This document shows positions 14,904 to 37,956 of a stretch of 64,000 bases of DNA, piece by piece. The DNA comes from Amyloporia xantha. Lineage: Eukaryota; Basidiomycota; Agaricomycetes; Polyporales; Adustoporiaceae. Each line of letters starts with the position of its first letter. Position 1 is the first letter of the stretch. The stretch lies in contig JAYKKR010000008.1 in NCBI GenBank assembly GCA_036971615.1, positions 868,001-932,000 on the forward strand. The letters are read 5' to 3'. A program made the position numbers and the translations under genes. The notes under the pieces are model-generated. The model had not been told where the DNA came from and ran no database searches. It saw only the letters and a list, made by a program, of their open reading frames with translations.

Positions 14904-15150
14904 AAGAAAAGAGACTGTCCTATGTACGAAGTGTATAATGTATTTTTACTTATAGCCTTTATTTTTAAGCAGTACTACAAGCTAATAAACGGCGTGAGGA
15001 CACTGTCTACAGCGATGGAGTGGTAGTGCCGATGGGCGGGAGGGCGTCTAATTTCCCGGATCAGACATTTGATCCGGGGAGGCGCCGTGGGACAGCACAA
15101 TGCGAAAATGCAAAATGCAAAATCAGACCTGATACCGCTCGGCAACCGTA
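14904..15150 (-). repeat. Right terminal inverted repeat
   Basis: Inverted copy of 14308-14554, ending GGCAACCGTA at 15150. The two arms are essentially identical except at the inner boundary, suggesting recent activity or gene conversion between the arms. Confidence 0.85.
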
Positions 15151-21249: not shown

Positions 21250-21306
21250 GGCGTGTTCGTGCAAGGGTATAGTTGTGATGGCACGAATGCTGGTGAGGGC
21301 GTTGGG

Positions 21307-21313
21307 ATATATA
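21307..21313 (-). promoter_or_regulatory. TATA-like box of the short-chain dehydrogenase gene
   Basis: ATATATA about 60 bp before the ATG at 21249, read on the minus strand as GGTATATATCCC. The position is reasonable for a fungal core promoter. No experimental support can be seen. Confidence 0.35.
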
Positions 21314-21319
21314 CCATGC

Positions 21320-22189
21320 GCGGGCACCCAGGAGCCAGATGACGCGCCCAACGTCATTGATGTCTCCTCGACCATTCATTTGGCTCCGCTCCTCTTTCCA
21401 TATCGGGCATCTATACACTACTGCTTTTGGAAATCAAGTGCGGCTCCGAGTGATTTCAATTCAGGGTGTTCTGGGCGAGGCATGATACGTACGTGGAAAT
21501 AAGATTCACTGCCATTCAGACTCATGGCACGCATATATTGATTTGTCTCATGATTCAAAACGACGTCGTGTGATGTTAGTTTATTTAGTCTAAATGTGTA
21601 CCACTTTGAGTAAAATGAAGAAAATATGTGTGACATTTATACATCTTGGACAAATGCCTTCCATTTGCATGTATTCAAATGGTGTTAGGCTTACTTGTTT
21701 CCCAAAAAATTGACATCTGTTGACTGTTGGCACAGATAGCCACAAGTCAAAGTAGAGTAAATTATCCAACTGCGCAGGCAAGCAGGCGCGAGCCTGAGAA
21801 GCATCGGGGCGGGCAGTGTCGAGAAAGTACCTTTGCAAATGAAAATTCAAAGGAGCATAGATTCTCTACGTCCCTGAAGTCGTTCGTTTTGTCAACTTCT
21901 CAAGAAGGTGCAAACTTTACAAATTTGAAACAGTATACCGCCCATACAAACGAATACAGGTAAGTAAATCAACTTTCACAGCAACAGCGACATGGACTAG
22001 CGACAACATTTGAGAATAGACAATTTGATATTACATCCGATCTCTATACTAGTAGCTCATCTGCGCACAGCCTACAGCAGCCTAAAATCATAGGCACCTG
22101 CAGAGTGCATATTATACTGGCCATCGTATAAGATGTACTCTGGGAAGATCACTCAGGTCCTTACAATGGTATCATCAATAATGAGTCAA
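21320..22189. other. AT-rich intergenic region
   Basis: About 870 bp, clearly richer in A/T than the flanking genes, between the dehydrogenase upstream region and the stop of the first tandem paralogue. Short frames only. No terminal repeats or RNA gene were recognised. Confidence 0.5.
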
Positions 22190-24202
22190 TCAATGCACAG
22201 TCTCCAACAAACTCTCATAAGGACGGAGGTCGTCTGCCGTGATCATCGTCGCGCCGACCTTCTCCTGCAATGCTTGTAACAGACTTTCTAGCTTCCTCAC
22301 AGCATCTTCGCTTGCCCGTGGTCTTCCGTCTTCGTACAGAATATTGAGGAACGACGACAAGTCATGCACGTCAGGGACACGTCGTGGTGGCCGCTCGGGT
22401 GACGGGGTAGCAGCGGGCACTCTTCTGTGCCCAATCAAAGCCTTCTTCGTTTTTTCGCGCTTCTTCGCCAATTGTGACCACGAATCCACCTGCGGCGCCT
22501 TCGCCTTCACCCCAGACGTCGTGTCGAGCTGTCGCCATCGCACGAAGCCCCACTTGTACTTCGTAGCACCATCTGGCCCGTCCACTTGATTCAGCAGCGC
22601 GAATAGCCAGCCCTCGCCTTTGAACGCCGCCCCGTGCAGATGGGGCAGCGTGACGACGCTGCGCTCACCCCAGCTCCGGCCCTCCCGCCGCATCCCCGTG
22701 AACGCCGCATAGCACGCGTACGCGCTGTCCGCCGCCGTCTCCAGCCGCCGCGGGTCCTGCATCATCGCTGCGAAGTAATCCGTCAGACACTGCACGATCC
22801 GCTGTGGCGTGCTCACCGCGAGCGAGCACCCTCTATACTCGTATGCCACGGCCCCGGGTGCCCGCGCGGGGCTGCGGTTCGTGTGTGCCCGCAGGAACGT
22901 GAACGCGTTCGGGCGCAGCCGCAACTCCTTGCTCGCGCGCCCGGTGAAGGACGCGTGTATGATGGCGTCCAGGGCCTTGAACAGCCCTGGCCGGTGGAGC
23001 ATCATGTGATGCAGGGCTGCGGCGGGGGCGGGGCACGGGAGGAGCACCAGACGCTTCAGGCTGGGGACAAGGGGGAGACATTGCTCCATGTCCTCGTACT
23101 CGAGCACACATTTGGACATATTGAGCACTTCAAGATGTGCGCATGAGGAGAGCACCTCCAGAATCTGCTTTGCGGGGAGGCATGAGTCACTCAGATCTAG
23201 CGTGTCGCCCGACATCGCCATCGCTTTGCACAGTAGTAGCTCGGGTTCGTAGGAGTCCGGGGGTGATGGTTGGTTCTTCGTGATGATACCTCTGATGCGC
23301 GCGGTGCCCCCGGGCAGGGAGACCATCTCCTGCATACTCTGCACGCAGCCGTCCTCAACAGCCTGCGTGACGGCAGGCTCCCAACACAGCTCGGCCAGGG
23401 TCGGGATGGCAGGCTCAGGTTTGGAGGATCTTGTATCCTCGCTAGACGCGCGACGGCTACGCTTGCCTTGCCGGAAGCGAGACGGCCAGGCTTCCCGCAG
23501 CATCTCGGGGGTCACCAAGCGCTTGGATGGGAAGTTATGGACAAACGAGCGAACAGATTCACCTGTTGGCGCTGTTCCGTCTTGGGGTCTAGAACCAAAT
23601 GATAAAAGGTCTGGGTGGAACGCAGTGAGGTATTGGGCGGCGTTGAGGGGCCGTAGCCCTGACGGGTCACTTGTGGCGAGCGGCAGAAAGCAGTATGCTG
23701 GATGTTCCGGATCGGTCATGTCAAATACGCTTATATGGTCGCCTATGACTGTACGTCTCGCGTGAGCGAACGTTCAAACCCTCGTACAGAAATTATGGGA
23801 AGGGAGAGCTAAAAATCACGTACGTTCTTTATCGACGTCGCGCGCAGGATCCTGGTACTGGTCCCGCCCTCCACTAATGTATGTCTGCTCAGGGTCTTCG
23901 CTGAGGTCCGCGTACCAACACATCGTGAGCAGGAACGAGAGGTACGGACACGGAGTGGGCAGCAAGGCCCGCGGAGACGGAGTCCTGTACATCCTCTGCC
24001 CGAACGTGATGTCGGACAGTTCCCAGCGGATGATCTCAGCATTTTCGGGCTGCCGTGCGAGGGTTATGAATCTTTGTGCGGCACGGAGGGGAAGCAAGCC
24101 GCTGCAGTGTGGATGGCGGATGGCGGCGATGCAGCAGTATTGCGGCCTTTTGCATTGGGAGAGGCGTGCGATGATATAGGCATAGTGCTCGTCCGGATTC
24201 AT
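22190..24202 (-). CDS. Unnamed LRR-like family protein, tandem paralogue A
   Basis: Two exons, 23824-24202 and 22190-23748, separated by a 75-bp intron, give about 645 residues. Start MNPDEHYAYIIARLS leads to a first domain of about 130 residues (AAQRFITLARQPENAEIIRW, YLSFLLTMCWYADLS). Across the splice junction (phase 1) comes GDHISVFDMTDPEHPAYCF. The centre has LRR-like segments (LEVLNMSKCVLEYEDME, LKRLVLLP). The second half carries NAFTFLRAHTN, YRGCSLAVSTPQRIVQCLTDYF, YACYAAFTGMRREG, VVTLPHLHGAAFKGEGWLF and KYKWGFVRWRQ, which are the stretches most conserved with paralogue B at 42569-44588. I do not recognise a named domain or function. No signal peptide or membrane segment is seen. Confidence 0.75.
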
Positions 24203-24697
24203 TGTTGCCTGATTTCCGCGACAATGGTGTTGATGTTGGGTGAATTGGAGAGTTACTCACCAGTACTACGTTCCGTCTACGAGCACAGTGGCCCGCCTTT
24301 CCACAGTTCAACAATGTTCTCTGTGGACGTGCTAGTCTCTCATTAGGATATGGTTCGGGCAGCGTGAGAGTAATGGATTACGTAGCGCGCATTGCCACAG
24401 AGTCCGACAAGATAGTACAATTGATTACTAGACGTAGATAGACTAAGGAGATCAGTAACGGAATAAAGGAAAGAAATAGCGTGGAAACGAAAAAGCAATG
24501 AAGGGTGCGACTAAGAAGGAAAACGAGAGAAGTGGGCGAAAGCCCGCTAGGGCTATCCGACATGATGAGCGCCTCTCGCGCGCTATGGGGAAAGACGGAG
24601 GTGAGCAGCGATTCCCAAACATTAGGAGGGGCAGCGACGCATCCGCGAGCCGTGGATTCCCCATTAGGTTAGGAGCTGGCGGGAGGACTTACCAGAT
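24203..24697. other. Junction between paralogue A and the DIRS-like element
   Basis: About 500 bp holding the upstream region of paralogue A and the unresolved 3' terminus of the DIRS-like element. No clear inverted or split direct repeat matching 42140-42568 could be found by eye, so the element boundary is not defined. Confidence 0.4.
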
Positions 24698-26053
24698 TCA
24701 ACGTACACGCGGCATGGTGTACCGAACGAAAGAATCGTGTACGACTGGCGTGGCTTGCATGTACGGAGCCATCACTTGTGCGTGTTTGCGGAGATACAGC
24801 GTGAAGGCTTCACTGGCCCACCGTCCTTTGGACTTGACAACGTCGAAAGGAACTCCCCGTAGCAGGTACTCGAGGGTGCCGCCGATTCGAATACCATGGC
24901 CTTGCAGCGGGTCAATGCCTGCTGCGCGCGATGCTTTTGCGATGCGTGCCAGGAAAGCTGGTTTCGTTAGAGGGCGGGGACTTCCTTTTACCATGTGGGA
25001 GAACAATGGGCCATTCGCTGGTGGCGCGTTGACCTGTAGATGGTTGGCGAAGGCAGCAGTCGGGTCTGATGGTCCACTTTGGGTTGCCCAGAAGACATCC
25101 TCGCCGCCAGGAGCTGACTTCGTCCTGGGAATAAAGAAGACAGTTTCGGATAGATTGTTGCGGTCACGCGCTAAGCGGACGTCAGAGGGCTTGACGTGTA
25201 TGGCCGGGTCGAAGGATCGTAAAGTCGGAATTGTGAGCTCGCCGACACGCGCGACCGCATAGAACGCGGTCGTGAGGCACGCCCAGACTGCGGCATCTAG
25301 CGGGGTGTCGAGCGAAAGATGGTCGCGCAGGGTGCAAAGGTACTCTACAGTGTACGGACGTCTCTTCTTGCGCTTCGAAGACTTCGGTTCAATGTTCTCC
25401 GCAGCCCGTAGCAGAGCTTCTGTCTCCATGGGGTTGATGAGCCACGGGATGCCGTGCAGTATGTGCCACGCCCGGATACCATAGAAATAGTTACTGATAG
25501 TACTGCTTATGTAAGAGCCGGCGAGCGAAGCTATGAAACTTAGAATTAAAATGTTACTTGCCGGGGCCCTCTCAGATTCAGGTATGCACTTCAGGTCACA
25601 CATGACGTGGTATGCGAGGAGACCCGACCCATAGGTCTCAGCGGTGCTGACCGCCCATGCACGCGCGGTTACGGCGTTGATGCGCGCGATGTCCTCGTCG
25701 GAAATGGATACCGGGGAGCCATCTGCAGCGACAGCTCGGCGAGAAGTCGGCGGTTTCCATAGTCGGAGACGATCTCTCGCTAGGCAGTGTGGGCGCAGCG
25801 ATGAGACGGCAGGGGTGAGGCCAGGGAGATATGGGCGTGGGCGGGTCGCTGGATCGTCAGGTGCTGGTATGACAGTGTCGAAACGCGATTCAGTCGTCCC
25901 AGTATGAGAACTCCCAAAGGTAGTCCTCGGAACGCCCGTCGAGGCGATGATTGCTGACGGCGCGCTCTGCTGCGGGGAGCTGGACCTTTTCGGCAGCTGG
26001 CATGGGGGCTGCACCGTGGTCAAAAGGAACTGCTGAGGGACGGGGTGAATCAT
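24698..26053 (-). CDS. DIRS-like element tyrosine recombinase
   Basis: Site-specific recombinase expected to integrate the circular cDNA of the element. A likely start at 26053 (MIHPVPQQ) overlaps the end of the RT/RNase H gene by 164 nt in another frame. The N-terminal SAM-like domain includes TARAWAVSTAETYGSGLLAYH. The catalytic domain shows AVARVGELTIPTL (first Arg), GHGIRIGGTLEYLLRG (HxxR), GRW, and YLRKHAQVMAPYM (Tyr nucleophile), completing the R-H-R-Y set. It ends TMPRVR at 24698. The frame is uninterrupted, so the protein may be functional. Resemblance to Crypton recombinases is possible, but the RT context makes DIRS the better call. Confidence 0.85.
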   Translation of the reverse strand: MIHPVPQQFLLTTVQPPCQLPKRSSSPQQSAPSAIIASTGVPRTTFGSSHTGTTESRFDTVIPAPDDPATRPRPYLPGLTPAVSSLRPHCLARDRLRLWKPPTSRRAVAADGSPVSISDEDIARINAVTARAWAVSTAETYGSGLLAYHVMCDLKCIPESERAPASNILILSFIASLAGSYISSTISNYFYGIRAWHILHGIPWLINPMETEALLRAAENIEPKSSKRKKRRPYTVEYLCTLRDHLSLDTPLDAAVWACLTTAFYAVARVGELTIPTLRSFDPAIHVKPSDVRLARDRNNLSETVFFIPRTKSAPGGEDVFWATQSGPSDPTAAFANHLQVNAPPANGPLFSHMVKGSPRPLTKPAFLARIAKASRAAGIDPLQGHGIRIGGTLEYLLRGVPFDVVKSKGRWASEAFTLYLRKHAQVMAPYMQATPVVHDSFVRYTMPRVR

Positions 26054-27052
26054 AGTCGACGACGAAACGTTGGACGTCGGAGGGAATCGTGATGGGAGGA
26101 AGCAGGAGGCTGGAAGGGGGATAGAGTCCGCGCGAGGGATGATCGGCCGGGTTGCGGGCGCTCTCGACATATCGGGCATGAACGCGGCAGCCGGTAGGTT
26201 CAAGAAAGGTGTGTAAGCGTTTGAAGACTTCGTTGACGAAACGGTTTCGGCTCCGCCCGTTTCGCCAACCTTCAACGACTCCCATGTTGTCTCCGAAGAC
26301 CAGGACATCGGGATATGGAGAGGAGCTGCGCAGGAGGAAGCGGACGAGGAGCTCGAAACCGATTGCTTCTGCCCAGCCAATGTCACGGCCGTCGTTCTGC
26401 CAGCCTGGAAGGAGCCGCCACGCCCTCCAACGGGTGCCGATGACGATTCCAATGCCGACGCCTGAGCTGGCGTCGGAGAAGGCACTGACATCAAAGACCT
26501 CACAGGGACCAGGGATTGGCCGACTGATGTCTGGTTTTGCGAGAACACTGGCCCACCATTGGAGGTCTCGGGGGGTTCCAGATGGCGGAGTGCGGGGAAG
26601 GAAAGGGTTACTGTGGAAAATACTGAGCATAGATTCCAAGTTGGTGAGGTAAGCACGGCCCGCAGGGACCACCAAACTAGCATGAAGGAGTTTACCATAC
26701 AGCCGTTGGACTTCGTCCAGGGTGTGCGTACGCGACTTCCGCCATTCCTCGATGGCACGCAAATACTTCGCAGCCTTGAGTGGCGGAATAGCGACCGTCT
26801 TGGCGTCCAGGTTCCAAGAGAAACCGGTAAACGGGAATACTGGCTGGAAAGGGACATCTTTTTCTTCTTGCCAAGGGATGCCGAGGTAGGAGGATATTTT
26901 GTCAATGTCGGCGAAACAATAGGTGAAGCGTGCATCAGCCAGGGATCTGGGCGAGGAAGCGGAGAGGTCGCGCAGGGGCGAAGCCATATCCTCAACGAAT
27001 TCATCAGTGCGCCCGTCGGGTAGGGGATCCCCTCCGAACCATAGACGTCCGC
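25890..27052 (-). CDS. DIRS-like reverse transcriptase/RNase H, 3' half
   Basis: Continuation of the RT gene interrupted at 27052. It includes DKISSYLGIPWQEEKD and FTGFSWNLDAKTVAIPP (RT motifs after the active site), the thumb/connection region (LDEVQRLYGKLLHASLVVPAGR), and an RNase H domain with acidic residues in FSDASSGVGIGIVIG, GWAEAIGFELL and VFGDNMGVVEGW. The HARYVESARNPADHPSRG segment matches the C-terminal RNase H motif. The stop is at 25890. In the present genome this half is fused in frame to antisense LTR sequence and lacks its RT core, so it cannot be made as a full protein. Confidence 0.85.
26054..27052 (-). pseudogene. RT/RNase H gene disrupted by LTR-element insertion (left half)
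   Basis: This part of the RT/RNase H gene has lost its upstream half to the insertion at 27053. The reading frame continues without change on the other side at 39446 once the insertion and one target duplication are ignored, so the gene was intact here when the LTR element arrived. Confidence 0.75.
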
Positions 27053-27437
27053 TGTAAGGCCTGGTGCTCCTCCCGCTGTGCGATAAGCACACCTGGAAGG
27101 AACAGATCAATGAGTCGAAGGGGAAGGGGAGTGAAGACGTTCGCAGCGTCTGGCACGGAGGATGAGCAAGAGAGAAAAGAATTGATTGAGCTAGAGACTC
27201 GTAGGTATATGGGGGATGCTCTATGTGTGCTATCCCAGTCAAGTCGCAGTCGCAGTCCTAAGTACGCAGTAGATATCCCGAATCGCAGTAAAATGGGTCA
27301 AGCCGCTTGCTCGCCCTCTCGTAGAAGTAAAACGCAGTGTAGCTCCGCTGAGCAATAAAACCCGGTCGCGTGAAAATCAAAGTCCCAGTCGCAGCTCGTA
27401 CCAGATGGTAGATCCCCTTCCGCCTCGTCCCCCTTCC

Positions 27438-27446
27438 TCATATATA
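27438..27446 (+). promoter_or_regulatory. TATA-like box for the antisense LTR gene
   Basis: CATATATAC about 135 bp before the plus-strand ATG at 27581, oriented to drive transcription opposite to the retrotransposon. The same sequence is present in the second LTR (about 38345). A role is inferred from position only. Confidence 0.35.
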
Positions 27447-27580
27447 CCTCGTCCCGCGTGCGCTGCCACGTCACTTTCCCTCCCGCTTCCTCCCGCTACC
27501 TCCCGCTGCCTCCCCTCCGACTCTTCCCCTGACTTACTTATCCTCCTTCCGCGCTCTTCCCTCCCTTCGCCTCATTCGCC

Positions 27581-28380
27581 ATGTCTGAGCCTGCCGAACC
27601 CACCGACCCCATCGGTTCCCTCCACGTCCGCCGCTACCTCCTCCTCGTAGACGTGCTTCGCGCTGAATGCGTTGTGGAGCCTTCATTCCGCCCTTCCGAT
27701 CCGGCTGCTTGGCTTGCCTGGGCGCACGGAGTGCGCTGGCTCCTGGTTTGTCCACCTTCTCTTTCACTTCTCTTCCCTTCCCCTCACGTCCCGTCCCGCA
27801 GCGCCTTGCCTATGAGGCTCGAGCCCAAGCCATAGCCGCGGGGAACCTCACGCTCCCTCCGCTCACTGCCTTCGTCACCCTCCGCGAGCTCGTCCACTAC
27901 ATCGACTCGATCTTCCGCTCCTCCCTGAGCCATCGCGGTGCAGTCCCTTATCCTGGGATCGCCTGGAGCCCCGACGAGGTCCGCTCTAATGCGCAGCGGG
28001 ACGAAGCTGGCACTCCGCCTCCCCTCCCGTTGTACACGGAAGAGGCCTTCTGGACCCCTCCCCGCGTCACCGAGGAACGTACCGATGAGGCTTTGGAACG
28101 GCTCGAACTTATTGCCCGCCAGTTCTCGGACACTTTGGACCGTATGCGTCCCTATCCGCGGGCGTTCGAAGACTTAGAGCACTCGATCCGTGTCGCCGCT
28201 CATGCTCTGGGAGGGAGGGGAGGACGTCGGGAGGGAGGTCCCTCGCGGGCCCGTACCCCTGCGGAGGAGGATTTCCGTTACCACCGGGAGACTATTTATC
28301 GTCCCCCGCGCCACCGCTCGTTCTCTGACGTCGGCGGGGAAGGGCCCGACGCTCCCATCGACTTGTCGACCGTAGATTAG
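27581..28380 (+). CDS. Antisense LTR-encoded protein A (unidentified), intact
   Basis: Encoded on the strand opposite to the retrotransposon, wholly inside the LTR. Exon 1 is 27581-27745 (55 codons, MSEPAEPTDPIGSLHVRRYL...SDPAAWLAWAHGVRWLL). A 56-bp intron follows (27746-27801, GTTTGT...CCCGCAG), then exon 2, 27802-28380. The product is 247 residues ending PIDLSTVD. Without the splice the frame closes after about 84 codons, whereas the two exons join in phase 0. Exon 2 starts RLAYEARAQAIAAGN, has a helical region (TLRELVHYIDSIFRSSL, ALERLELIARQFSDTLDRM), then an Arg/Gly-rich tail. It shares the DPAA-W-x-A-W-x-H-x-V helix and the intron position with the ORFs at 28852 and 30959. Function unknown. 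Confidence 0.6.
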
Positions 28381-28540
28381 CGTTCCGTCCTGTAGTCGTT
28401 CCGTCCCGTAGTCGTTCCATTCGAATGCCATGCTTGCTTCCGCCGAGCTCCCTTGTCCCGCGTGACCACCTCTCCTTCGTTCCACTGTCTCGTCCTGCCC
28501 TACCGTCCGTTCATAGGGTAGCGCGTACCCATTCCTTACA

Positions 28541-28554
28541 CCCCCTACCCACTT
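28541..28554 (-). other. Polypurine tract of the LTR retrotransposon
   Basis: On the minus strand AAGTGGGTAGGGGG directly abuts the 3' LTR (TGTAAGG...). A purine-rich run immediately before the 3' LTR is the usual plus-strand primer site of LTR elements. Confidence 0.6.
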
Positions 28555-28851
28555 AAATTCCGACCGTCCTTGGTCGGTCCGCCGTCCTAATCCCCGAGCA
28601 AATCCCCGAGCCTTCAGGTCGTCCGATCATCGCAGATGCACGCGATCGGGCCGCGATCGCGTCAAGATCGATAGCGCTGGGGCACGCGCCCACCTCGAGG
28701 CGCTCCTGCCGCGCATCCCGCTGCTCCCACAGAGGCTGCCAAACGAGGGAAACGGCACCCGCTGGTTCATCCCTAACGTCCTCCCTTCCCCTCCGACCTC
28801 GCCCTTACCCCCACTCTCCCTTCCCGACCTCGACTCGCTCCCTCCACAACC

Positions 28852-29670
28852 ATGTCCGTCGACCTCACCAACCCCGCCGCTGCTCGCCGCTCCCTCCCTA
28901 TCATCGAACAGCGCCTCGACACGCTACGCGGCGCGGAACCAGAGCTCGGCGACGACCCTCGCCGCGGGACCTACAGGAGTGGCTACGGTGGGTGAACTCC
29001 TTGGGCCAGGCCTGGGTAAGTGGCTCGTTCGCGATTCCCGCCGCGCCGTCGCTCCCTAACCTTGACGTTCCTGCTAGGTGGCGCTGGCGGCGCCCACGCA
29101 GTGGCCAGCCACGAAACCACGCCGCGCAGTGCCCCGGCCCTGGAGCTGCAAACCTGGCTCGCAGCCACGCGCGGCCGACTCATGGCCTACCGCGACGAAT
29201 TCCCCGTCGCGGATCAGTACTACGACTCCCTCCTGCAGCGCCTCTCTCCCGCCCACAGCGCCACCTTCCTCGCCGGCACTCAAAACTTCACCTGGAATCG
29301 CCACTCGCGCACCCTCCACAACCTATGGCCCCCAGCCCCATTCCCTCCCACCGACGCCGATACGTCCGCCTCGGGGTCCCGCTACACCTCCCCGTCAGAA
29401 ACGGATGAAGTAAGTCGCAACGCCTCTTCAGGCGGAAGCGTGCCGCTAACGCCGTCGACCGTGGAGTTGGACGATGACGAAGGCGAAGATGAAGTAGAAC
29501 CCTCGTCCGACCTCGCCCCGCCGTCCCCGCCGCCCCCGCGCACCGTGGGTGGGAAGAAGCGGCAGACGAAAGGTAGAACGGCCGCCCCGAAACCTCCCAA
29601 GGCCCCCGCCTCTCTATCAAGGTTCCCCCTCGCCTCGCCACCGCCGCCAATGCCAAAAGACTCTCGCTGA
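28852..29670 (+). pseudogene. Antisense internal ORF B, N-terminal part, frame-disrupted
   Basis: ATG at 28852 (MSVDLTNPAAARRSLPIIEQ) opens a frame that closes at TGA 28996. The related helix DLQEWLRWVNSLGQAW appears in another frame at 28968-29015, directly before a GTAAGT donor. An acceptor CTGCTAG ends at 29077. Downstream, frame 29080-29670 encodes ALELQTWLAATRGRLMAYRD, an acidic/Pro-rich stretch and a basic KKRQTKGRTAAPKPPK segment, ending in TGA at 29668. The layout (W-helix, then intron, then a second helical segment) parallels ORFs A and C. At least two frame changes are needed to join the parts, so it is called broken; sequencing indels could explain this. Confidence 0.4.
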
Positions 29671-30634
29671 TCGCCCGAACCGCGATCGGCGAGGTCCCAT
29701 CGTATACCTCAACCACCCCCGTGCGCGTACTGCACCAAGAAGGGGTATCGCTGCGCGGGAGACGGCACTCGCCGCCATGTTTGCGAAGTCGTGCATGATC
29801 GCGCGGGCGAAGTGCACCATCCGCGACGATCCCCCGCCAATCGTAAGTCCTTCCCCCGCTCTTCCTCCCGCAGGTACGTTTCATCGCACTTCCCCAGAGC
29901 ACATCGAGTTCGTCGGCCCGCAATCTGACGAGGACGACGACGAGCCGCCATACCCTCCCGAATTCCCGCTCACCAACCGCGCCCGTCCCGTCGTCCTCAT
30001 CCCGCCCCGTCCGCGCGCCACCACTATCCGTCCACCCGCCGCCGCCCCTGCAGCCACGCCCGTCACTCCCCCTCCGCGTCCATCCGTACCCCCGTTCGAG
30101 ATCCTTCCAGCCGCTGAGGAACCGTTGTTCCTTCCCGGGACCCCCGACCGCCCGATCTCCCCTCCATGGGTGCCCTCAAGTCTCCTTCCCGCCTTTTCTC
30201 CCCTTCCGCTCCATCCCCCTCCCGTCGTCATTCGCCGTCCTCGCAACCTCGACCTCCTGGACGTCGCCGCAGAGCCGCCGTGCGAGCCGCAGACCGAGCT
30301 CGAGATGTGGCTCGTCGCTCGGTTAGCGGCCACCACCGACTTCCTTTTCCAGATGGCCGATCGAGCGCGGGACCTCGGGTACGCAGAGCAATTCGGGATC
30401 GCTGACTACCCCGACAACACGCTCGACCCCGCTCGCTCCGACAGCCCTGCCCCCGACTTCATCGAAGGGTCCTCTAGCGGCCCCGCTCCTCATCCGGCTC
30501 CCGACAGCGACGACGCCGTGGCTGAGCTCCTGGCCGCTGAGCTCGACTCCCCTACGCTGCCGCCGCTGTCGCCCACCGACGAGGACATGTTAGACCTCAC
30601 CGGGGCGTCCAAAGGGAAAGGACGCGAAACGTAG
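29671..30634 (+). pseudogene. Antisense internal ORF B, C-terminal part with Zn2Cys6-like motif
   Basis: In the same frame as the preceding ORF, after its TGA, the plus strand encodes PCAYCTKKGYRC (Cys codons 29722, 29731, 29752) and a fourth Cys at 29782. One base out of frame come Cys codons 29792 and 29813 in KSCMIARAKC. The spacing is C-x2-C-x6-C-x9-C-(x2 plus one base)-C-x6-C, that of a fungal Zn2Cys6 cluster. The second frame then stays open to 30634, with a Pro-rich linker, a helical segment TELEMWLVARLAATTDFLFQ, an acidic Asp/Ser/Pro region and the end KGKGRET. I read this as one protein, N-terminal W-helix plus zinc cluster plus helical tail, now frame-disrupted. Role unknown. Confidence 0.45.
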
Positions 30635-30958
30635 CGCGGGCCTCCCCTGGGTTCGCGTAGTGTACGAAATGTACTTTTATCTCGTAGTTGACGTAGTCGT
30701 CCGTCTGCCGTTGTATGCCGTCGATCTTGTATGTACGCGCCGCCCCCCGCCGTTGATCGGCTAAAATCAATGCATGTCAGTTTACTCGTCCCGCAGCCCC
30801 CTTCCGCCCCGTGTGCCCCTGCCGCGTGCCCCATCGCGTTCTTCGTAGAAGCCGCCTCGCGGCAAGCGCGTGTTGCGCCCCTCGGTATAACTACCGCCGC
30901 CCATCCCCGATCTCACTGAGTTTCTTTCCCTCGCCCCTCTATCTTCGTACCCCGTCTC

Positions 30959-31759
30959 ATGAGCGCGACGCCCCCGGTGTTTTCCCCTGAGGAGGCCCGC
31001 GAAAGGTACCTGCAAGTCCTCTGTGACAACCCCATCCCCTCCGATCCGGCCGCACGCATCGCGTGGGTCCACGCCGTAGACACCGCCGAGGTACGTGCTC
31101 CCCTTCCGCCCACACTATACGTTGTCCTCGAACCCCCGCCTAGGCCATCCTTCATTCCACGCTTCCGGAGGACTACGACCCTTCGTCCCCGTCGGAGCCC
31201 GTCCCCGGGATCGATGTCCTTGCCCGCCGCGCTGTGGTGGACTCCTTCCGCCTGCGTTACCTACCGCATCCGCCGCCAGTCCCCATCCGCCTCACCGCGT
31301 TAGAACTCCAAAACGTCCAACTCCAAGCGCGCATCGACCAACTCGAACCCGCCCTCGCTCAGATCCTTCAAGTGCAAATGGACCCGCTGCGCTCTGACGT
31401 CATTGCCCGCGCCCTCGAGATCCTCGCGGAAGTAGATCACCGTTTGTCTCTCCAAGACACGGCCCTTTCTTCCGCGCTGGAGTACGTCCATGTCCCTCCT
31501 TCGTGCCGAGGTCCACGCGCGCGCCCGGGATTCCTCGTCTGCCTTGCGTATCCTCCAAGACCAGGTCGCCCACGGATTCGACCGCGCCGCCTTCTCCCTC
31601 TCCACCCACAACACCGTAATCCAGTCCCTTCTCCGCCGCGTCCTCGCCCTGGAAGCCCGCTTCCCTTCCCCCGACCCTCCTCCCGTTCCCTACTCTTCCC
31701 CCCCGTCGTCCGATCCTTCCTCCCCGCTCGATCCTTCCCCTTCCGTTTCCTCCCCATAA
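30959..31759 (+). pseudogene. Antisense internal ORF C, coiled-coil protein, one frame shift
   Basis: Exon 1 30959-31090 encodes MSATPPVFSPEEARERYLQV...SDPAARIAWVHAVDTAE. An intron (GTACGT...CGCCTAG, ending 31143) follows. Exon 2 from 31144 gives AILHSTLPEDYDPSSPSEPV and a coiled coil (LTALELQNVQLQARIDQLEP, ALEILAEVDHRLSLQDTALS). Near 31483-31490 the coiled coil jumps by one base into SLLRAEVHARARDSSSALRI, ending VSSP at 31759. The exon-1 W/H helix and intron position match ORF A. The last 320 bp overlap the open tail of the integrase on the other strand, a tail-to-tail arrangement. Function unknown. Confidence 0.45.
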
Positions 31760-32168
31760 TTCTTTTGCTCACTGTCCCGACCCACATCTTCCTCCCCCGC
31801 TTCCATTTCGTCCAATACCCCCTTTGCGCTTCTTCCGCTTCTTCGACGATCTTGCGCACGTCTAGTGCAACCTCCTTTCGCGCCTTATACGGTACCACAC
31901 GGAACGCCGCGTACCGTAGTCTCGACACCGCTCCTGTTAGTTCCGCGAGTATGTAGGCTCCTCCTTTTGTACGCCGTATGACAACCATAGGCCCGAAATA
32001 CCGGGGTTTTGACTTCCTGCTATGTTCCGTCTCAATTTGTGAGTTCCGCACCAGCACCAGATCCCCCGCCGTAAACACAAAATCCTTGATTGTCCGCGCG
32101 AACCGCCGCTCAAAATCCTTGACCGACGCGTATCGAGCCGCTAGCACCCTCCGCCGTACGTCCCGCAA
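31437..32168 (-). CDS. Retrotransposon integrase C-terminal region
   Basis: Continues the integrase in another frame. It contains DFERRFARTIKDFVFTAGDL, VLVRNSQIETEHSRKSKP and RYFGPMVVIRRTKGGAYILAEL, the GPF/Y-like module of Ty3/Gypsy integrases (RYFGPMVV here). After WTKWKRGRK the frame stays open to 31437 but becomes low-complexity Arg/Gly sequence overlapping antisense ORF C, so the true C-terminus is probably near 31800. Confidence 0.75.
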   Translation of the reverse strand: MRDVRRRVLAARYASVKDFERRFARTIKDFVFTAGDLVLVRNSQIETEHSRKSKPRYFGPMVVIRRTKGGAYILAELTGAVSRLRYAAFRVVPYKARKEVALDVRKIVEEAEEAQRGYWTKWKRGRKMWVGTVSKRIMGRKRKGKDRAGRKDRTTGGKSREREEGRGKGSGLPGRGRGGEGTGLRCCGWRGRRRRGRIRGRPGLGGYARQTRNPGRARGPRHEGGTWTYSSAEERAVSWRDKR

Positions 32169-33394
32169 ATCCTCCGTTCGTTTGAGCAGTTGCCGCCCCG
32201 GATTTCAAGTAGGTCCACCTCGCTGATCTCCTTCCGGTCGGGCGGCACCAAGTAAGTAGCTTCCGCCAGGTCGAAAGGGAAAACTGGCTCGATCCCGTGC
32301 GCGATAAAGAAGGGCGAAGTGCCCGTCGATTTCTGAATCGTCACCCGTTCCGCCCAAAACACAGCATGCATCACCTTAGGCCACCCCTTCTCGTTCCCTC
32401 CACAGAGCTTAACCGCTGCTTCCCGTACGTCCCGGTGCCTCCGTTCCACGATCCCGTTCGCCTGTGAGTTGTACGCTGAGATTCGAATATGGTTGATTTT
32501 GTACCGTTCCCGCAGGTGTTCCAACGCCGCGACAAACGGTGTCCCGTTATCCGTAACAATCTCCTCCACCGCTCCCCACCGACACAGCAGCTCCTCGTAG
32601 ATGAAGTTTCCAATCGTCACTCCTGTCTCCTTCCGCAGCATCCGCCATTCTGGGTAAGACGACAGGGAACAACGCGCTTGGACGATATGCGTGTACCCGT
32701 ATGCTGTTGGCATGTGCATCGAATCCATGTGCACTTTCGAAAACAGCCCCCCCGGCATAGGTACCGTCGGTGGGATGTGGTACTTGTGCGCCTTGCGGAG
32801 CTGACACTCATGGCAGCTTCCCACGTACCATTTTACGTCGTGATCGAGACTAACCCACCAGAATCGTTCGAGGAGCCGGGCGCGCACCGTGAAGATCCCT
32901 TTGTGCCCGAGGGAATCGTGCGCCTCTTTCATCAGGCCGTACCGCTTCCCTTTCTCCACCACCACCTTGTGCTTCCCTCCTTTATCTTTCTTCCAGAGCC
33001 TCCCCCCTTTGACAAAGAACTTGCTGGCGTAACGGACGAACGAGGTGAACTGCCTTTCGTCCATTCCTTCCGGCCGCCTCGGGTCTCGTAAAAATTCGTC
33101 TACCTTCCGCACCCTTTCCTCCCGCGCCCCTCCGTTGCTGACCTCTGGGATCTCTACCCCCTCTCCCGCGTCCAGCGACCACACCATGAGTCCCTCTTCG
33201 TCCCTCTTCCCTCCCGGCGTATTCAAGACCTCCATGGTGAACGCGTAGGCCTCGTCAATCCACTCTTCGAAGTCATCTTCCTCTTCCGGGTCTTCCTCCG
33301 CTGCTCCCCGCCGCGAAAGCCCGTCCGCCCCCGCATGCCGTTCCCCGGCACATGTACCAGCTTGAAGTCGAATAGGAGGATCCCAGCGATCCAT
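32141..33394 (-). CDS. Retrotransposon integrase (zinc-binding and DDE domains)
   Basis: Inserts cDNA into the genome. The HHCC zinc module is visible as AHDSLGHKGIFTVRARL...CHECQLRK. The catalytic core shows MDSMHMP (first Asp), VTDNGTPF (second Asp) and NGIVERRHRDVREAAVKL (Glu), giving D,D-35-E. The N-terminal part overlaps RNase H in a different frame. The frame changes to the following C-terminal segment near 32160. The order RNase H then integrase places the element with Ty3/Gypsy. Confidence 0.9.
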   Translation of the reverse strand: MDRWDPPIRLQAGTCAGERHAGADGLSRRGAAEEDPEEEDDFEEWIDEAYAFTMEVLNTPGGKRDEEGLMVWSLDAGEGVEIPEVSNGGAREERVRKVDEFLRDPRRPEGMDERQFTSFVRYASKFFVKGGRLWKKDKGGKHKVVVEKGKRYGLMKEAHDSLGHKGIFTVRARLLERFWWVSLDHDVKWYVGSCHECQLRKAHKYHIPPTVPMPGGLFSKVHMDSMHMPTAYGYTHIVQARCSLSSYPEWRMLRKETGVTIGNFIYEELLCRWGAVEEIVTDNGTPFVAALEHLRERYKINHIRISAYNSQANGIVERRHRDVREAAVKLCGGNEKGWPKVMHAVFWAERVTIQKSTGTSPFFIAHGIEPVFPFDLAEATYLVPPDRKEISEVDLLEIRGGNCSNERRICGTYGGGC

Positions 33395-34080
33395 CTGTTG
33401 ATAGTGGCGTTTGGTTGGATGTCTGGGTTATTTAGCATCCCCTTAATATATTTGGCGTCGACTTCGACGACCAGCTTCTTCACTCCGATAATGTAGATCC
33501 GGCACGCTCGCAGTGCCCGGAACAACCCAAACAGCTCCAGCTTGGCTTGCGAGTATCGGGATTCGTGTTCGTTCCACGTTATGGACCCGAACCGGTTTGG
33601 CCTTCTCTTCCCGTCCTCCCCTTTCTGTAAGATCACGAACCCCACCCCAATCCACGATGAATCCACCGCCAGAATTACCTCCCGTTCGGACCCATAGTCA
33701 ATCGGGACGAGCGCGGGAGAGTTGATTACTGCGTCCTTCAGCTTCCGCATAGCGTCCTCCTGCGCCTCCTCCCACACGAAGTCGGCTCCCTTCCGAAGCA
33801 AGTCGTTGAGTGGGCGCGCCATTTTTCCGAAGTCCTTTACAAACATCCGCACTAGCCCGCAGGTCCCCAAAAATCCTCGCACGTTTGTTACCGTCTCACA
33901 CCGCGGCCAATCCTTGATCTTCTGCACTCGGGACTCCTCCGGGACCCTCCCTCGTACGTGCATCGGTGCCCTACCACCACCACCTCTGGAACGCACAAAT
34001 ACGCCTTCTTCCCCGAGAACGTCCCTCCCACGTTCCCGATCCGTTGCAACACCCGATTTACGTTCTGTAGGTGTTCCCAC
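33223..34080 (-). CDS. Retrotransposon RT connection and RNase H domain
   Basis: Starts after a frame change near 33950. It contains RGFLGTCGLVRMFVKDFGKM and ARPLNDLLRKGADFVWEEAQ (RT thumb/tether, typical Ty3/Gypsy), then an RNase H domain with ILAVDSSWIGVGFVILQ (first Asp), YSQAKLELFGLFRALRA (Glu), and VEVDAKYIKGMLNNPDIQPN (Asp). It ends in FDFKLVHVPGNGMRGRTG, where family members have the HxPGxxN(xx)AD motif. The frame changes again to integrase near 33300. Confidence 0.88.
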   Translation of the reverse strand: MGTPTERKSGVATDRERGRDVLGEEGVFVRSRGGGGRAPMHVRGRVPEESRVQKIKDWPRCETVTNVRGFLGTCGLVRMFVKDFGKMARPLNDLLRKGADFVWEEAQEDAMRKLKDAVINSPALVPIDYGSEREVILAVDSSWIGVGFVILQKGEDGKRRPNRFGSITWNEHESRYSQAKLELFGLFRALRACRIYIIGVKKLVVEVDAKYIKGMLNNPDIQPNATINRWIAGILLFDFKLVHVPGNGMRGRTGFRGGEQRRKTRKRKMTSKSGLTRPTRSPWRS

Positions 34081-35573
34081 ACGAATCGCCTTATCCCTGG
34101 GTTCCCCTCGATTGTCTCATACCCCCCTTCCAGCTCGTACCGGGTCTTTGGCCCTTTAATTGGCACGTCGTCGATGAACGGGACCGTGACATGCGGAATC
34201 TCGTCCTGCAGGATGAAGGTCACATCCCCATGCATAATTTGCGCAGAATTGGTATACCCCATCGGAATCGAGGTCAGCCGAAATGCCCCCAGCGGCGTCT
34301 GGAACGAGGTGATGTCCCGAGACCGGGCGTCCAGGGTCCGCTGGTCGAAAGCTACGTATAGGTCCAGGATCCCATAACATCCCCTTCCCCCGAAGGACTC
34401 CGCCAGATGTTCTACCAGTGGGGGAACCGCCGCGTCCTTGATAGCTACGCCGTTTAAGGGTTGTAGATCGTGCACCAACCGGAGGGACTTCCCGTCTTTC
34501 TTTACCACGCAGAACCACCTGGACCGGTACGACGAGTTTGAAGGCTCGTACACTCCCGAAGCGATCTTGTCCTTGATGATTTGTACGACCTGATCAAAGA
34601 TTCCCGGCGGGATAGGGATGTTCTTCAGCACCCACGGGACGTGTTCCACCGTCGGAATCATGACCGGGTCGAAGTATTCGTCCGAGAACCTTCCCTTCTC
34701 CGTCTCGTCCCAGGCGAACACCCGCTCGTGCTGTCCCACTAAAAAGTCCACCAACTTCACTTCTTCCGGCCACAGGAATCCCCCTCCCCCTACGTCCAAC
34801 GCCTTCCTCCGCTCGTCCGTATAACGCCCCTGCGGGTGGAACTCGGGCGGCCGACGAGGCAGTTCCGGTAGGTTCCTCAGGGGGTCCCCTGGCGCTCTTC
34901 GCACGATTCGAAATTCTTCAGGTAGCGTCGTCGCCACCGGCCTTACCTTGTTCGCTACCTTCTTGTAGGCGTACGCATGTACCACCTCGTCTTCTTCTAC
35001 CCAGAATCCTTCCTTCCCGCTCCTTCCGCTCCCTTCCGGCACTATAAGTCCTCCCTCCCGCGTTAAGTGTATCCTCTTCTTCCCTGCTCGCACCACCGGT
35101 GGTCGTTCGTTTATCTTGGGTTCGCGCGGCAAATACGAGGAAACAGAAATGCATTGAGACTGAATATCCTTGCCGATACATGATATGTGCGAATTGTCCA
35201 GACGAGACGACGACACCCGGGTGCGATTACCCCTCTCTTCTTCCCCCCGCGCAGTGCTCCTCTCCGCCGATTTGCCTGCTCTATCTATCGGGTCGGAAGG
35301 GGTATACAGAGAGTATAAACGTACGAGTGCGTCTCCGCGAGCGTTGCCCGCATCCTCGACTATTGAAAACCCGCCGCGGATGGCTTCCGTCGACCGTTCC
35401 GCGGTTTCGTCGCCACCATTACCCGTTCCCCTGTCTCCGGGTCTGTAAGAGTGATTTGTTGTTCGCCGGAGGGGAAGTCCCGCGTTCGCAAGCGGTAAGA
35501 GCAAAGAAGGGCCGTCCCAGGAGAACCTCGAACGGCGCGTCGTCCAGCACCTGCAGCTGGAGGTACAGGTCAA
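33888..35573 (-). CDS. Retrotransposon reverse transcriptase
   Basis: RNA-dependent DNA polymerase. Recognisable parts: IKDKIASGVYEPSNSSYRSR and WFCVVKKDGKSLRLVHDLQP (fingers), GRGCYGILDLYVAFDQRTLD (motif A Asp), TSFQTPLGAFRLTSIPMGYT (motif B), TVPFIDDVPIKGP (motif C; FIDD where YxDD is usual, and both Asp are present). Upstream is a linker with FDPVMIPTVEHVPWVLKNIP. The frame shifts to the next segment near 33950, where one base appears to be missing. Confidence 0.92.
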   Translation of the reverse strand: MTCTSSCRCWTTRRSRFSWDGPSLLLPLANAGLPLRRTTNHSYRPGDRGTGNGGDETAERSTEAIRGGFSIVEDAGNARGDALVRLYSLYTPSDPIDRAGKSAERSTARGEEERGNRTRVSSSRLDNSHISCIGKDIQSQCISVSSYLPREPKINERPPVVRAGKKRIHLTREGGLIVPEGSGRSGKEGFWVEEDEVVHAYAYKKVANKVRPVATTLPEEFRIVRRAPGDPLRNLPELPRRPPEFHPQGRYTDERRKALDVGGGGFLWPEEVKLVDFLVGQHERVFAWDETEKGRFSDEYFDPVMIPTVEHVPWVLKNIPIPPGIFDQVVQIIKDKIASGVYEPSNSSYRSRWFCVVKKDGKSLRLVHDLQPLNGVAIKDAAVPPLVEHLAESFGGRGCYGILDLYVAFDQRTLDARSRDITSFQTPLGAFRLTSIPMGYTNSAQIMHGDVTFILQDEIPHVTVPFIDDVPIKGPKTRYELEGGYETIEGNPGIRRFVWEHLQNVNRVLQRIGNVGGTFSGKKAYLCVPEVVVVGHRCTYEGGSRRSPECRRSRIGRGVRR

Positions 35574-36622
35574 CGCTCCCGAACGTGGAAACGTACGTTC
35601 TGTGCCTTCCCGACCGTTTTCACTTGGGCGCTGTTGGCCGTCTCCATCGTAATGGCTTCGTCAGGCTTCAGGACGATCCCTGTCTTCTCCCAGATGTCCT
35701 TCCGCATGGCCACGATCTGCGCCCCGCCGTCAAGCACACACTCGCATGTGAACTTCCCTTCGATAACTGGTTCCACCGCTCGCAGCGCCAGGGAGTCGTG
35801 CCCGATACTCGCCCCTCCTTCCGTAACCTGGAAGGTTTCCTTCGCGTCCTCCCAATGGTCCTCGTCGTCGACTTCTACCATACCGGCGGTGGCTACCCGC
35901 GATGTCGTCACGTCCCCCTTTACTTCCTTCCGCACCCCTGCCGAGATCGCCAGGACCTCCCCCACCGTCATCTCCACCTTCGTCCCGTAGAGCTTCTTCT
36001 GTCGCTTCCGCCACCGAGTACCGTTGTTCGATCTCCGTCTGGTACTTGTATTGCCCCGTGGTTCCTCCCGCCCCTTTCCTTCGCTTCCCTTAGCCTTTTC
36101 CTCGCTCGTCCGTGGTATATTGGCCGCAGGTATCCCCGGCGGTTTCCCTCCTGGGCCCCGCAATGCCGCCCCCGTCCTTGCCCCTGTCTTCTTCACTTCT
36201 TCGAACCGCACTTCCTTCTTCTTCGCCCGCGCCAACTCTGCTTGGAGAACCCGGACCCTTTCCGACGGATCTTCCTCATCCGACGATCCTTCTTCCCTTG
36301 TCTCCACCATGTTCACGCCCTCGTATATCTGGAAAAGGTTCGCGGCCAAGTGCGGAGGGGCCTGTCGCTCGTTCCCCGCGACTCGTACCAGTTGCCCCGG
36401 GTTCTGGGCGTGCCACGAGTCCACTCGATCCTTCATGTACTCTCCAGGCAGACCGCGCGGAACGAACATGCTGTTCGGGAGCCGTACTTTCCCCGTCTCG
36501 TCCCGGTAGATCTTCCGGTCAAGGATATACTGGAGGATAATCCCGCAGTTCCGCATGAAGTGCTCCGGGTCCCCACAGAAATTGCACAGGAAGTTGCCCG
36601 GCGCTCCTCCCGCTCCTTGCAC
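35570..36622 (-). CDS. Retrotransposon zinc knuckle and aspartic protease region
   Basis: Begins in the nucleocapsid with the CCHC knuckle CNFCGDPEHFMRNC (C-x2-C-x4-H-x4-C). After a linker comes a retropepsin-like domain with VIEGKFTCECVLDGGAQIVAM. The catalytic triplet is Asp-Gly-Gly rather than the usual Asp-Ser/Thr-Gly. Downstream MRKDIWEKTG and AITMETANSAQVKTVGKAQN match the flap side of related fungal proteases. It overlaps gag upstream and RT downstream in different frames. Confidence 0.8.
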   Translation of the reverse strand: MQGAGGAPGNFLCNFCGDPEHFMRNCGIILQYILDRKIYRDETGKVRLPNSMFVPRGLPGEYMKDRVDSWHAQNPGQLVRVAGNERQAPPHLAANLFQIYEGVNMVETREEGSSDEEDPSERVRVLQAELARAKKKEVRFEEVKKTGARTGAALRGPGGKPPGIPAANIPRTSEEKAKGSEGKGREEPRGNTSTRRRSNNGTRWRKRQKKLYGTKVEMTVGEVLAISAGVRKEVKGDVTTSRVATAGMVEVDDEDHWEDAKETFQVTEGGASIGHDSLALRAVEPVIEGKFTCECVLDGGAQIVAMRKDIWEKTGIVLKPDEAITMETANSAQVKTVGKAQNVRFHVRER

Positions 36623-37900
36623 GACCCCTCCCCGGTCCGCGGCGCCCTCCCGCTCCTCCGCTGCGTCCTGCCAAGAACGCCTGCATCATCTGTATCGTCT
36701 GGTTGAAGAGCGCCAAGTCCACGCCCTCCGTCTTTACCACCGCGGTCGCTGCTGGAGGCGCTGTCGTCCCACTCGTCCCTGCTGTGTCTCTTCCGCCCTC
36801 CCACGGCTCCTCCTCCTACTCCCGGGAGGCACTTCTGCGCCACCTTGTGCATTACGTCCATCCCCCACGGGTCGTCCGGGTCGTGGTCGGGTTCTGCGAT
36901 CTCCGCCCTCCGGGTAATCGTCCGCAGTTCTTCCTCCCCAAACCCGCGCATGTACACTTCGTCCCTGTGCCGCGCCGCTATCTTGCTCTTCGATATCAGG
37001 AAGGCTGCAACCGGGGAATACTCTTCGATAATATGCGGCCTCCTCCCCCTCGTCCGCACCCCCTTGTCTCGCGCCGACTGTGCTATGCGATCGAGGTCTG
37101 CCGCGGTGTACCTCTTGTCTCCGTCCGCCCCCGGGTACAAGGCCTTCACCCCTCGCTTAAACACCAGATACACCCGCCCAGCGGCCCCATCCGCCGTCTT
37201 CCATAGTTCCTCTTGTTCCACCGTTAGGTACTTCAGCGCGTATCGTATCTTTTCTTCTTCCGTCGTAATCCCTGCTGCCGCGCACAGGTCCTCTAGGTCC
37301 TCGAAGTATCGCAGTAGATTGCGCGGTTCCCCGTCGAAGGTCGGCGTCGTCTTCGCCCTCGCACGGGCATGGATGAAGTAGGCATGGCACGCGCGGGTAC
37401 TGTAGCACTTGTCGATTGGATAGGTGCGGGACGGGCGAGCTCGCTCGTGATGGAGGGAGTGGTATGCTCGCGGGATCTACGTATGTCGACAGGATGGTAG
37501 GCTCAACGACCTCGCGTTTGACTTGTACTGAGGGTGGTGCCGAAATCGTTCGTCGGCGTGGACGTTCGGGAGGAACTGGAGATGAGCGGGTTGACGGGGT
37601 CACGGAAGATTCGGTGATTGATGAGATCGTGGATGTTTCTTCGGTACTCCTTCCTTCCGCCGGTGGCTCGTGGTTTACTGGGGAATGGAGCGGAGGCGAA
37701 GGATGTTCGAGGGATACGGAGCGCGTGTTGCTTTGTGACCGGAAGGGAGGGATTCTGACGTCGAAAGGGTTATCCGAGTCTGAGTCGTCGAACGCGGCCG
37801 GTCGGAGGGGAAAGTGAGGAAGGTCGAGATCTAGTCGGGGGAGATAGGACTGTTCTGGGCTAAGAGAAGTTCTTGCTGTAGGGTACGGTCCGGCACGGCG
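36433..37900 (-). CDS. Retrotransposon gag
   Basis: Structural protein. A Ser/Pro/Arg-rich N-terminus (about 37500-37900) is followed by TPTFDGEPRNLLRYFEDLED, the canonical fungal gag opening, then KIRYALKYLTVEQEELWKTA, VFKRGVKALYPGADGDKRYT and IEEYSPVAAFLISKSKIAAR. The first half and the core are in different frames (junction about 37400). A further two frame changes lie between the Asp/Ser-rich hinge and the CCHC knuckle near 36660-36760, with VVKTEGVDLALFNQTIQMMQ in between. The exact start is not defined. Confidence 0.75.
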
Positions 37901-37936
37901 ATGGTGCGCGAACGAAGTCTTCGAACTATAAGATTC

Positions 37937-37954
37937 CCCTCGCGGTGGGCTCCA
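37937..37954 (-). other. Putative tRNA primer-binding site
   Basis: Two bases inside the 5' LTR (element orientation) the minus strand reads TGGAGCCCACCGCGAGGG. TGG at this place would pair with the CCA end of a tRNA primer. I could not assign the tRNA species. Confidence 0.45.
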
Positions 37955-37956
37955 CT

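Follow-up and report, generated by a model that had tools for sequence, protein, structure and literature searches.

The present work deals with a long terminal repeat (LTR) retrotransposon of the Ty3/Gypsy type in the fungus Amyloporia xantha, and with three genes, here called A, B and C, located on the strand opposite to its gag-pol. The DNA analysed, hereafter the window, is a stretch of 64,000 nucleotides (GenBank assembly GCA_036971615.1, contig JAYKKR010000008.1, positions 868,001 to 932,000 of the forward strand), in which the element spans positions 27053-39445 with gag-pol on the minus strand. The comparison of copies of the three genes within the genome indicates that A, B and C almost certainly encode real proteins from spliced antisense genes, and one of the three lies within the LTR. 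We consider it probable that the element is an LTR retrotransposon with its own antisense accessory gene set, the proteins of which would adjust its transcription or copy number. An earlier note on this DNA had pointed out three plus-strand genes opposite gag-pol in which a short first exon, closed by a Trp-containing motif, precedes a GT-AG intron; we found the same arrangement, with introns that measured 53-62 bp.

Codon-level selection on the antisense frames

The ratio of nonsynonymous to synonymous divergence (dN/dS) between element copies had been set beforehand as the test on which the proposal could fail. The values obtained, 0.115 for gene A, 0.175 for gene B and 0.157 for gene C, are not near 1. 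They were calculated by the Nei-Gojobori method and summed over pairs of copies within this 46.8-Mb genome. The corresponding dS was 0.061 in A (38 distinct sequences of 51 LTR places; exon 1 alone gave a dN/dS of 0.064), 0.308 in B (25 aligned rows) and 0.141 in C (13 intact of 36 copies). It should be noted that the LTR pair of an element does not provide two independent copies, and that alleles may be included among the copies, as the assembly contains matches paired by identical score and frame length. Dead copies inflate these ratios; on active copies a stronger constraint is to be expected.

The two other forward frames of the genes gave 1.46-3.56 (1.46 and 3.47 for the +2 and +3 frames of gene A); when the reverse frames with a different wobble position are counted too, the range is 1.18-4.80. 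The reverse frame sharing the wobble position was also low (A 0.217, B 0.252, C 0.177), each value being above that of the forward frame for the whole gene, as expected from a mirror effect; in the last part of gene C exon 2, opposite pol, the mirror value was 0.136 vs 0.154 for the forward frame. Variable columns at codon positions 1/2/3 numbered 26/15/67 in A, 116/89/299 in B and 22/14/82 in C. Over six frames, dN/dS was 0.65-1.00 in the spacer between B and C (27 rows) and 0.66-1.53 in the spacer between A and B (25 rows). Furthermore, in all three genes the introns diverge about twice as much as the exons while their GT-AG ends persist.

These data can be set against the idea that open antisense frames are a by-product of GC-rich sense coding, or chance. 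A high GC content favours long frames, and positions 20000-36000 are overlapped by 66 stop-to-stop frames of 100 codons or more. However, pol lies opposite only the end of gene C, A and B face no known sense gene, and the reverse frames contain stops: in exon 2 of gene A none of them is free of stops in any of the 51 copies, and in exon 2 of gene C each one has stops in the 13 intact copies. Moreover, apart from the annotated frames, the reverse wobble mate of C was the sole frame with a whole-gene dN/dS below 0.2. This explanation was rejected on dN/dS, reverse-frame stops and the layout of the sense genes, and its probability is practically negligible.

Alternatively, the antisense transcription itself could be functional, either as a source of double-stranded RNA for RNA interference (RNAi) or by interfering with gag-pol, the ORFs (open reading frames) being passengers. 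The end of gene C exon 2 and the end of pol overlap convergently, which would fit, and antisense-RNA roles are discussed for plant elements in extracts of a review (PMC7264820). Codon-phase-specific constraint, kept splice sites and faster introns and spacers are nevertheless unexpected of a non-coding RNA; as the sole explanation it was rejected on dN/dS, and we regard it as highly improbable.

It could also be argued that the three genes are decaying passengers, taken up by the element from its host or some other mobile element; the many frameshifted copies, B and C of the window included, would agree with this. Against this, gene B keeps its dN/dS of 0.175 at a dS of 0.31 across element copies, and an antisense gene of a sibling family, described below, has a low dN/dS at a dS above 1. 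In addition, the 80 genome matches of gene B were grouped into 44 places, 40 of which have a scored copy of gene C within 11 kb; two of the other four adjoin a copy of gene A (C2 and C23:1311685), and the places C34:2392171 and C23:386430 may be host copies. The capture of passengers is, in our opinion, improbable.

Structure and splicing of the three genes

The predicted protein of gene A has 247 amino acids from two exons located entirely within the LTR. The earlier note had read the ORF of the LTR as fully open over 247 codons, and so it is in the 3' LTR of the window. Its statement that every full element carries two copies of the gene holds for the layout, but the right-hand copy of the window is frameshifted in exon 2. 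The alignment comprised 53 rows (the window, 29 LTR loci taken from 40 scored among 118 candidates, L040, L055, L056 and 20 further LTRs), which, after removal of two duplicates of one genome place, correspond to 51 places and 38 distinct exon sequences. The spliced frame was uninterrupted in 29 of the 51 copies, and the intron had GT-AG ends in 50, the remaining one ending in AC. The difference between pairs was 0.046 in the intron vs 0.020-0.022 in the exons. Without splicing the frame is open in only five copies, whose intron has a length divisible by three and no stop; judged from these frames, splicing is needed by most copies of gene A. No Pfam match was obtained for this gene at E up to 10, and its relatives in a large protein set were P0003-P0005, with P0004 63% identical over 83% of exon 2. 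In L055 and L056, gene A is inverted directly beside gene C, as if a second element copy had inserted.

Gene B had been described as a two-exon gene. This was not upheld, since other copies show a single three-exon gene, 28852-30634, of 543-560 codons depending on the copy. B was found whole beside C in 23 of 28 fetched divergent loci, which together with the window and L040 make up the 25 aligned rows; L055-L058 and L061, where B is incomplete beside C, were left out. Gene B reads uninterrupted in 4 of these rows, and the window copy carries several small indels that frameshift it. The ends of both introns are GT-AG in the 25 rows, and the introns differ by 0.22-0.24 between pairs (0.239 in intron 1) vs 0.10-0.12 in the exons. 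Exon 2 contains six Cys residues with the spacing C-x2-C-x6-C-x9-C-x2-C-x6-C, invariant in all 25 rows. The relative of B in the large protein set was P0002 (80%).

The predicted protein of gene C has 248 amino acids from two exons. Of 44 candidates, 40 were scored, and 36 rows were aligned (the window, L002-L008 and L041-L068), leaving out four near-identical matches. The frame was uninterrupted across its 248 codons in 13 of these rows, the intron was GT-AG in 36 of 36, and the pair difference was 0.12 in the intron vs 0.04-0.05 in the exons. As for A, relatives were searched in the large protein set, where P0001 was found. Pfam gave one match below threshold (HTH_Mga, E 0.091, 13.2 bits vs a cut-off of 23), which was not used. 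Both B and C exist intact in other copies, whereas those of the window itself are frameshifted.

Two observations on the copies can be added. Compared with the window, the divergent loci are 83-94% identical in B, 93-99% in the gene region of the LTR and 92-99% in C, and dS was 0.31 in B vs 0.06 in A and 0.14 in C, on partly different rows; a possible cause of this unequal divergence is an exchange of modules between subfamilies. On the other hand, contig C16 (673 kb) of this genome (G000) carries 7 of the 40 scored copies of C, all 100% identical to that of the window, which suggests a recent burst or a repeat-rich region.

Similarity among the first exons

In each of the three genes the intron after exon 1 is in phase 0 and is preceded by a Trp at minus eight residues, to which A and B add another at minus eleven. 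Kinship was examined on the last 20 residues of exon 1, anchored at the intron without search and scored with BLOSUM62 against 200,000 shuffles. The scores were 22 for A with B, 43 for A with C and 27 for B with C, values that were reached by 45, 0 and 14 of the shuffles, respectively; the sum of the three was reached by none of the 200,000. BLASTP of the N-terminal parts gave E 3e-5 for A with C and E 0.035 for A with B. Past exon 1, no clear similarity among A, B and C was seen by eye, and no dedicated test was made. The alignments therefore point to paralogy of the three genes for the first exon only. The description of a small paralogous antisense family consequently stands as far as selection, conserved introns, a shared intron position after exon 1 and fixed placement relative to the primer-binding site (PBS; see below) are concerned, and has to be restricted to exon 1 with respect to paralogy.

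Position of the genes in element copies and in a sibling family

The 19-base PBS of the window element has 86 exact copies in the genome, and its reversed control has none. Of the 40 scored copies of gene C, 34 are followed by a PBS in element orientation less than 20 kb downstream; in 28 of these the distance is 6,970-7,010 bp. In the opposite orientation none of the 40 has it. By their place, their presence in most copies and the conservation of their proteins, B and C are antisense accessory genes of the interval between pol and the 3' LTR, that is, of the aORF-3R (antisense ORF) kind. Gene A departs from this placement, as it lies within the LTR itself.

Three other PBS loci (L089, L090 and L091) were read in part, about 5.5 kb each. 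L089 corresponds to a sibling Gypsy element, with a stop-to-stop frame of 660 codons in which RNase H and the integrase H2C2 domain are above cut-off. Behind this pol frame there is a multi-exon antisense gene, one exon of which is coiled-coil-like, and which holds a Cys cluster with the spacing C-x2-C-x8-C-x8-C-x2-C-x6-C. The strict zinc-cluster pattern had no match in L089-L091; a looser one, with a first loop of 5-10 residues, found the sibling cluster in four of four loci (L089 and L092-L094). A genome search with the last exon of the sibling gene gave 23 matches of 46-100% identity. A PBS in element orientation lies within 20 kb of 18 of them (nine at 7.2-7.4 kb), although at longer distances it may belong to another element, and none of the 23 has it in the opposite orientation. 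Over three exons of the four loci, dN/dS was 0.20-0.25 at a dS of 1.26-1.39, which is near saturation, with one pair not computable.

The first exon of the sibling gene, read by eye, also ends with a Trp eight residues before a phase-0 GTAAGT in the four loci. In two of these loci the anchored similarity was calculated: the best value, for L092 with A, was reached by 26 of 50,000 shuffles, and those of L089 with A and of both loci with B by about 900-1,200. The sibling gene resembles B in place and design, and a common descent of the two is plausible.

Some additional observations were made at these loci. L090 appears rearranged or nested. L091 contains a match to gene B exon 2 (48 residues at 35%, E 1.6e-4 without the low-complexity filter) in a basic proline-rich stretch, as well as a plus-strand open frame of 1414 codons (positions 2-4243) made of a degenerate PSSTxVLE-like repeat, beside the shared PBS. 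Finally, three matches of the sibling exon on contig C6 (G000:C6:292528, 302231 and 311936), with 100% identical protein and a spacing of 9.70 kb, are consistent with a head-to-tail array of Gypsy elements.

Possible roles of the proteins

Introns in antisense orientation are not removed from the gag-pol genomic RNA. An intron-bearing gene can survive retrotransposition for this reason, because its splice signals are not read on the RNA that is reverse-transcribed. We propose that gene A is driven by an antisense promoter in the 528 bp that separate the start of the gene from the edge of the LTR (the U5 side), in which case solo LTRs would retain the full gene, and that B and C are transcribed as separate mRNAs from the spacers of roughly 310-325 bp that precede each of them. 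The proteins would work in the nucleus on the transcription of the element, B as a zinc-cluster-like factor binding nucleic acid or chromatin and A and C as helical partners, and would tune transcription or copy number as HBZ does in human T-cell leukaemia virus type 1 (HTLV-1).

That A, B and C act as transcriptional regulators is, in our estimation, about an even bet. The evidence is circumstantial and consists of the Cys cluster of B, whose Pfam score lies below cut-off, and of the analogy with HBZ and with TRP28 of the element Retand. In a wider and rather unlikely version of the proposal, a fungal Gypsy lineage would have evolved its antisense regulatory set from one ancestral spliced gene, giving a zinc-cluster-like factor, a helical partner and an LTR-borne paralogue, and each solo LTR would be a complete regulatory gene under selection, with which the host genome fills.

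Real genes with a non-transcriptional role could also leave these traces: the proteins might, for instance, help the particle in its structure or its import into the nucleus, or counter silencing by the host's RNAi or methylation machinery. Selection and splicing demonstrate a protein function and not which one; A has no Pfam match and C only the HTH_Mga match below threshold; and extracts of the review of plant antisense ORFs (PMC7264820) count both regulation and RNA transport among retroviral accessory roles. By contrast, the six-Cys cluster of B has the spacing of a zinc cluster, and the sibling gene is also Cys-clustered. We hold a non-transcriptional role to be possible, though somewhat doubtful.

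Several results weigh against an accessory set with a regulatory function. The sole Pfam match of gene B is Zn_clus (PF00172), with E 0.12-0.14 and 12.7-12.8 bits for a cut-off of 21, and it arises in just 7 of the 11 members scanned; no copy of B is among the 58 Zn_clus matches of the whole genome, 36 of them above cut-off. The structure predicted by AlphaFold was poor for exon 2 of B (predicted local distance difference test score, pLDDT, 46) and for its 55-residue Cys region (pLDDT 58), and Foldseek with the latter model gave no match in the PDB below E 6. In the sibling family, the intron-anchored similarity of exon 1 to gene C was at chance level, the comparison of profiles between the Cys regions of B and of the sibling gene was weak (P 0.036, probability 1.4%), three sibling Cys exons had no Pfam match of any kind, and no recognisable antisense gene set was seen in L090 and L091, two of the three partly read PBS loci. 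Furthermore, B or C is frameshifted in many copies, including that of the window and other young ones, which means either indel errors of the assembly or genes that are dispensable in cis for each copy. With regard to the first option, seven copies show, relative to the window, 0-3 substitutions in about 900 bp and 2-3 small indels apiece in gene C. Since indels are about equal to or above substitutions, errors of the assembly in homopolymers are suggested, although real decay may be the alternative.

On account of the score below cut-off, the absence from the whole-genome matches and a glycine at what we take to be the position of the second DNA-contacting lysine of Gal4, gene B is termed here zinc-cluster-like, by its spacing, and is kept out of PF00172. 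A PDB sequence search with the profile of its exon 2 gave two proline-rich matches, both with E above 5.

Comparison with known systems

Antisense extra ORFs between pol and the 3' LTR have been described in plant Gypsy elements, such as gene23 of Grande, RIRE2, Retand and PvRetro13, according to extracts of two papers (PMC7264820, PMC11963269). The same extracts report features shared with the element of A. xantha, namely the interval, the presence in most copies and a suggested nuclear or DNA-binding role; they mention a promoter belonging to gene23 (PMC7264820) and predicted DNA-binding residues in TRP28 of Retand (PMC11963269). Unlike the plant elements, the one studied here has three genes, all of them with introns and one fully within the LTR. 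No Pfam match to TRP28 (PF04195), SMC or other domains of plant antisense ORFs was obtained for A, exons 2 and 3 of B, or C, at E up to 10.

The earlier note had mentioned antisense ORFs as known in plant LTR elements. This is correct for plants, but they are not exclusive to them: three papers (PMC7264820, PMC8365987, PMC4227169) mention such a gene in Boty, a Gypsy element of the fungi Botrytis and Sclerotinia. Compared by such descriptions, brtn of Boty/BcGypsy1 (Botrytis cinerea) is alike in being an additional antisense gene of a fungal Gypsy element, and differs in that a single extra gene is described there and three were found here.

As regards retroviruses, an extract on HTLV-1 (PMC10186651) presents HBZ as an antisense basic leucine zipper (bZIP) factor with a promoter in the 3' LTR and spliced and unspliced forms, which lowers viral expression. 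The likeness to HBZ, as far as that extract describes it, is that of an antisense gene tied to the LTR, splicing being predicted here from conserved introns; the differences are that one gene lies entirely within the LTR, that the element is fungal, and that the regulatory function is proposed by analogy. With respect to the Zn(II)2Cys6 domain (PF00172, Gal4 type), gene B shares the six invariant Cys and their spacing, and departs from it in the score and in the glycine mentioned above.

In the literature, searched at the level of titles and openings of abstracts, no precedent was found for antisense genes that form a spliced set and share the position of an intron, or for an antisense gene wholly within an LTR, in a fungal Gypsy element. 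What is new here is this spliced set with a member wholly within the LTR, antisense genes between pol and the 3' LTR being already known. Catalogues of the antisense genes found in LTR elements have so far dealt mainly with plants; the present case adds selection at the codon level over tens of copies and a sibling family. In gene A, promoter and coding DNA would be one selected sequence, and each complete LTR carries the gene. Keeping a gene in antisense is a natural route by which introns can persist in an element copied through RNA. In addition, the system offers a direct test of whether retrotransposons encode their own regulators.

Architecture of the host element

The window element (Table 1) has two LTRs that differ by no substitutions and three gap positions, and CCGC at both outer flanks as a 4-bp target-site duplication. 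A purine tract sits before the 3' LTR. On the minus strand, Pfam domains follow the order aspartyl protease, reverse transcriptase (RT), RNase H, integrase, i.e. the Gypsy order; RNase H and integrase H2C2 exceed the cut-offs, and the matches of protease, RT and rve fall below them. With LTRs, target-site duplication, PBS, polypurine tract and this domain order, it is a Ty3/Gypsy element. Its gag-pol is broken across frames although the LTRs show no substitutions.

Table 1. Features of the Ty3/Gypsy element in the window (positions of the window)
Feature	Position	Strand	Remarks
3' LTR	27053-28540	-	1488 bp; plus-strand ends TGTAAGG...CCTTACA
Gene A exon 1	27581-27745	+	55 codons, phase-0 end; within 3' LTR
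Gene A intron	27746-27801	+	56 bp, GTTTGT..CAG
Gene A exon 2	27802-28380	+	192 codons and stop
Gene B exon 1	28852-29015	+	Frameshifted in window copy
Gene B intron 1	29016-29077	+	62 bp
Gene B exon 2	29078-29842	+	Holds Cys cluster; frameshifted in window copy
Gene B intron 2	29843-29897	+	55 bp, phase 1
Gene B exon 3	29898-30634	+	dN/dS 0.167
Gene C exon 1	30959-31090	+	44 codons, phase-0 end
Gene C intron	31091-31143	+	53 bp, GTACGT..CTAG
Gene C exon 2	31144-31759	+	One frameshift in window copy
gag-pol pieces (aspartyl protease, RT, RNase H, integrase)	31437-36685	-	Pfam; several frames
PBS, putative	37937-37955	-	CCCCTCGCGGTGGGCTCCA on plus strand; two bases past 5' LTR
5' LTR	37957-39445	-	1489 bp
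Gene A second copy	38487-39285	+	In 5' LTR; one-base frameshift in exon 2 in this assembly

Other observations in the window

A long minus-strand ORF (24698-27106) adjoins the element, its first codons reaching into the LTR. By eye it resembles a tyrosine recombinase, and the frame 25890-27257 that overlaps it looks RT/RNase H-like, an arrangement seen in DIRS-type elements; the 802-residue ORF itself had no Pfam match. Two repeats were also observed: an inverted one (14308-14554 / 14904-15150), with 247-nt arms that are 99% complementary and 349 nt between them, and a direct one of 261 nt (59002-59262 / 63310-63570), 78% identical and 4.3 kb apart. Finally, outside the element, positions 9407-9487 of the minus strand (G000:C59:877407-877487) contain a Zn_clus match above the Pfam cut-off, with 25.6 bits.

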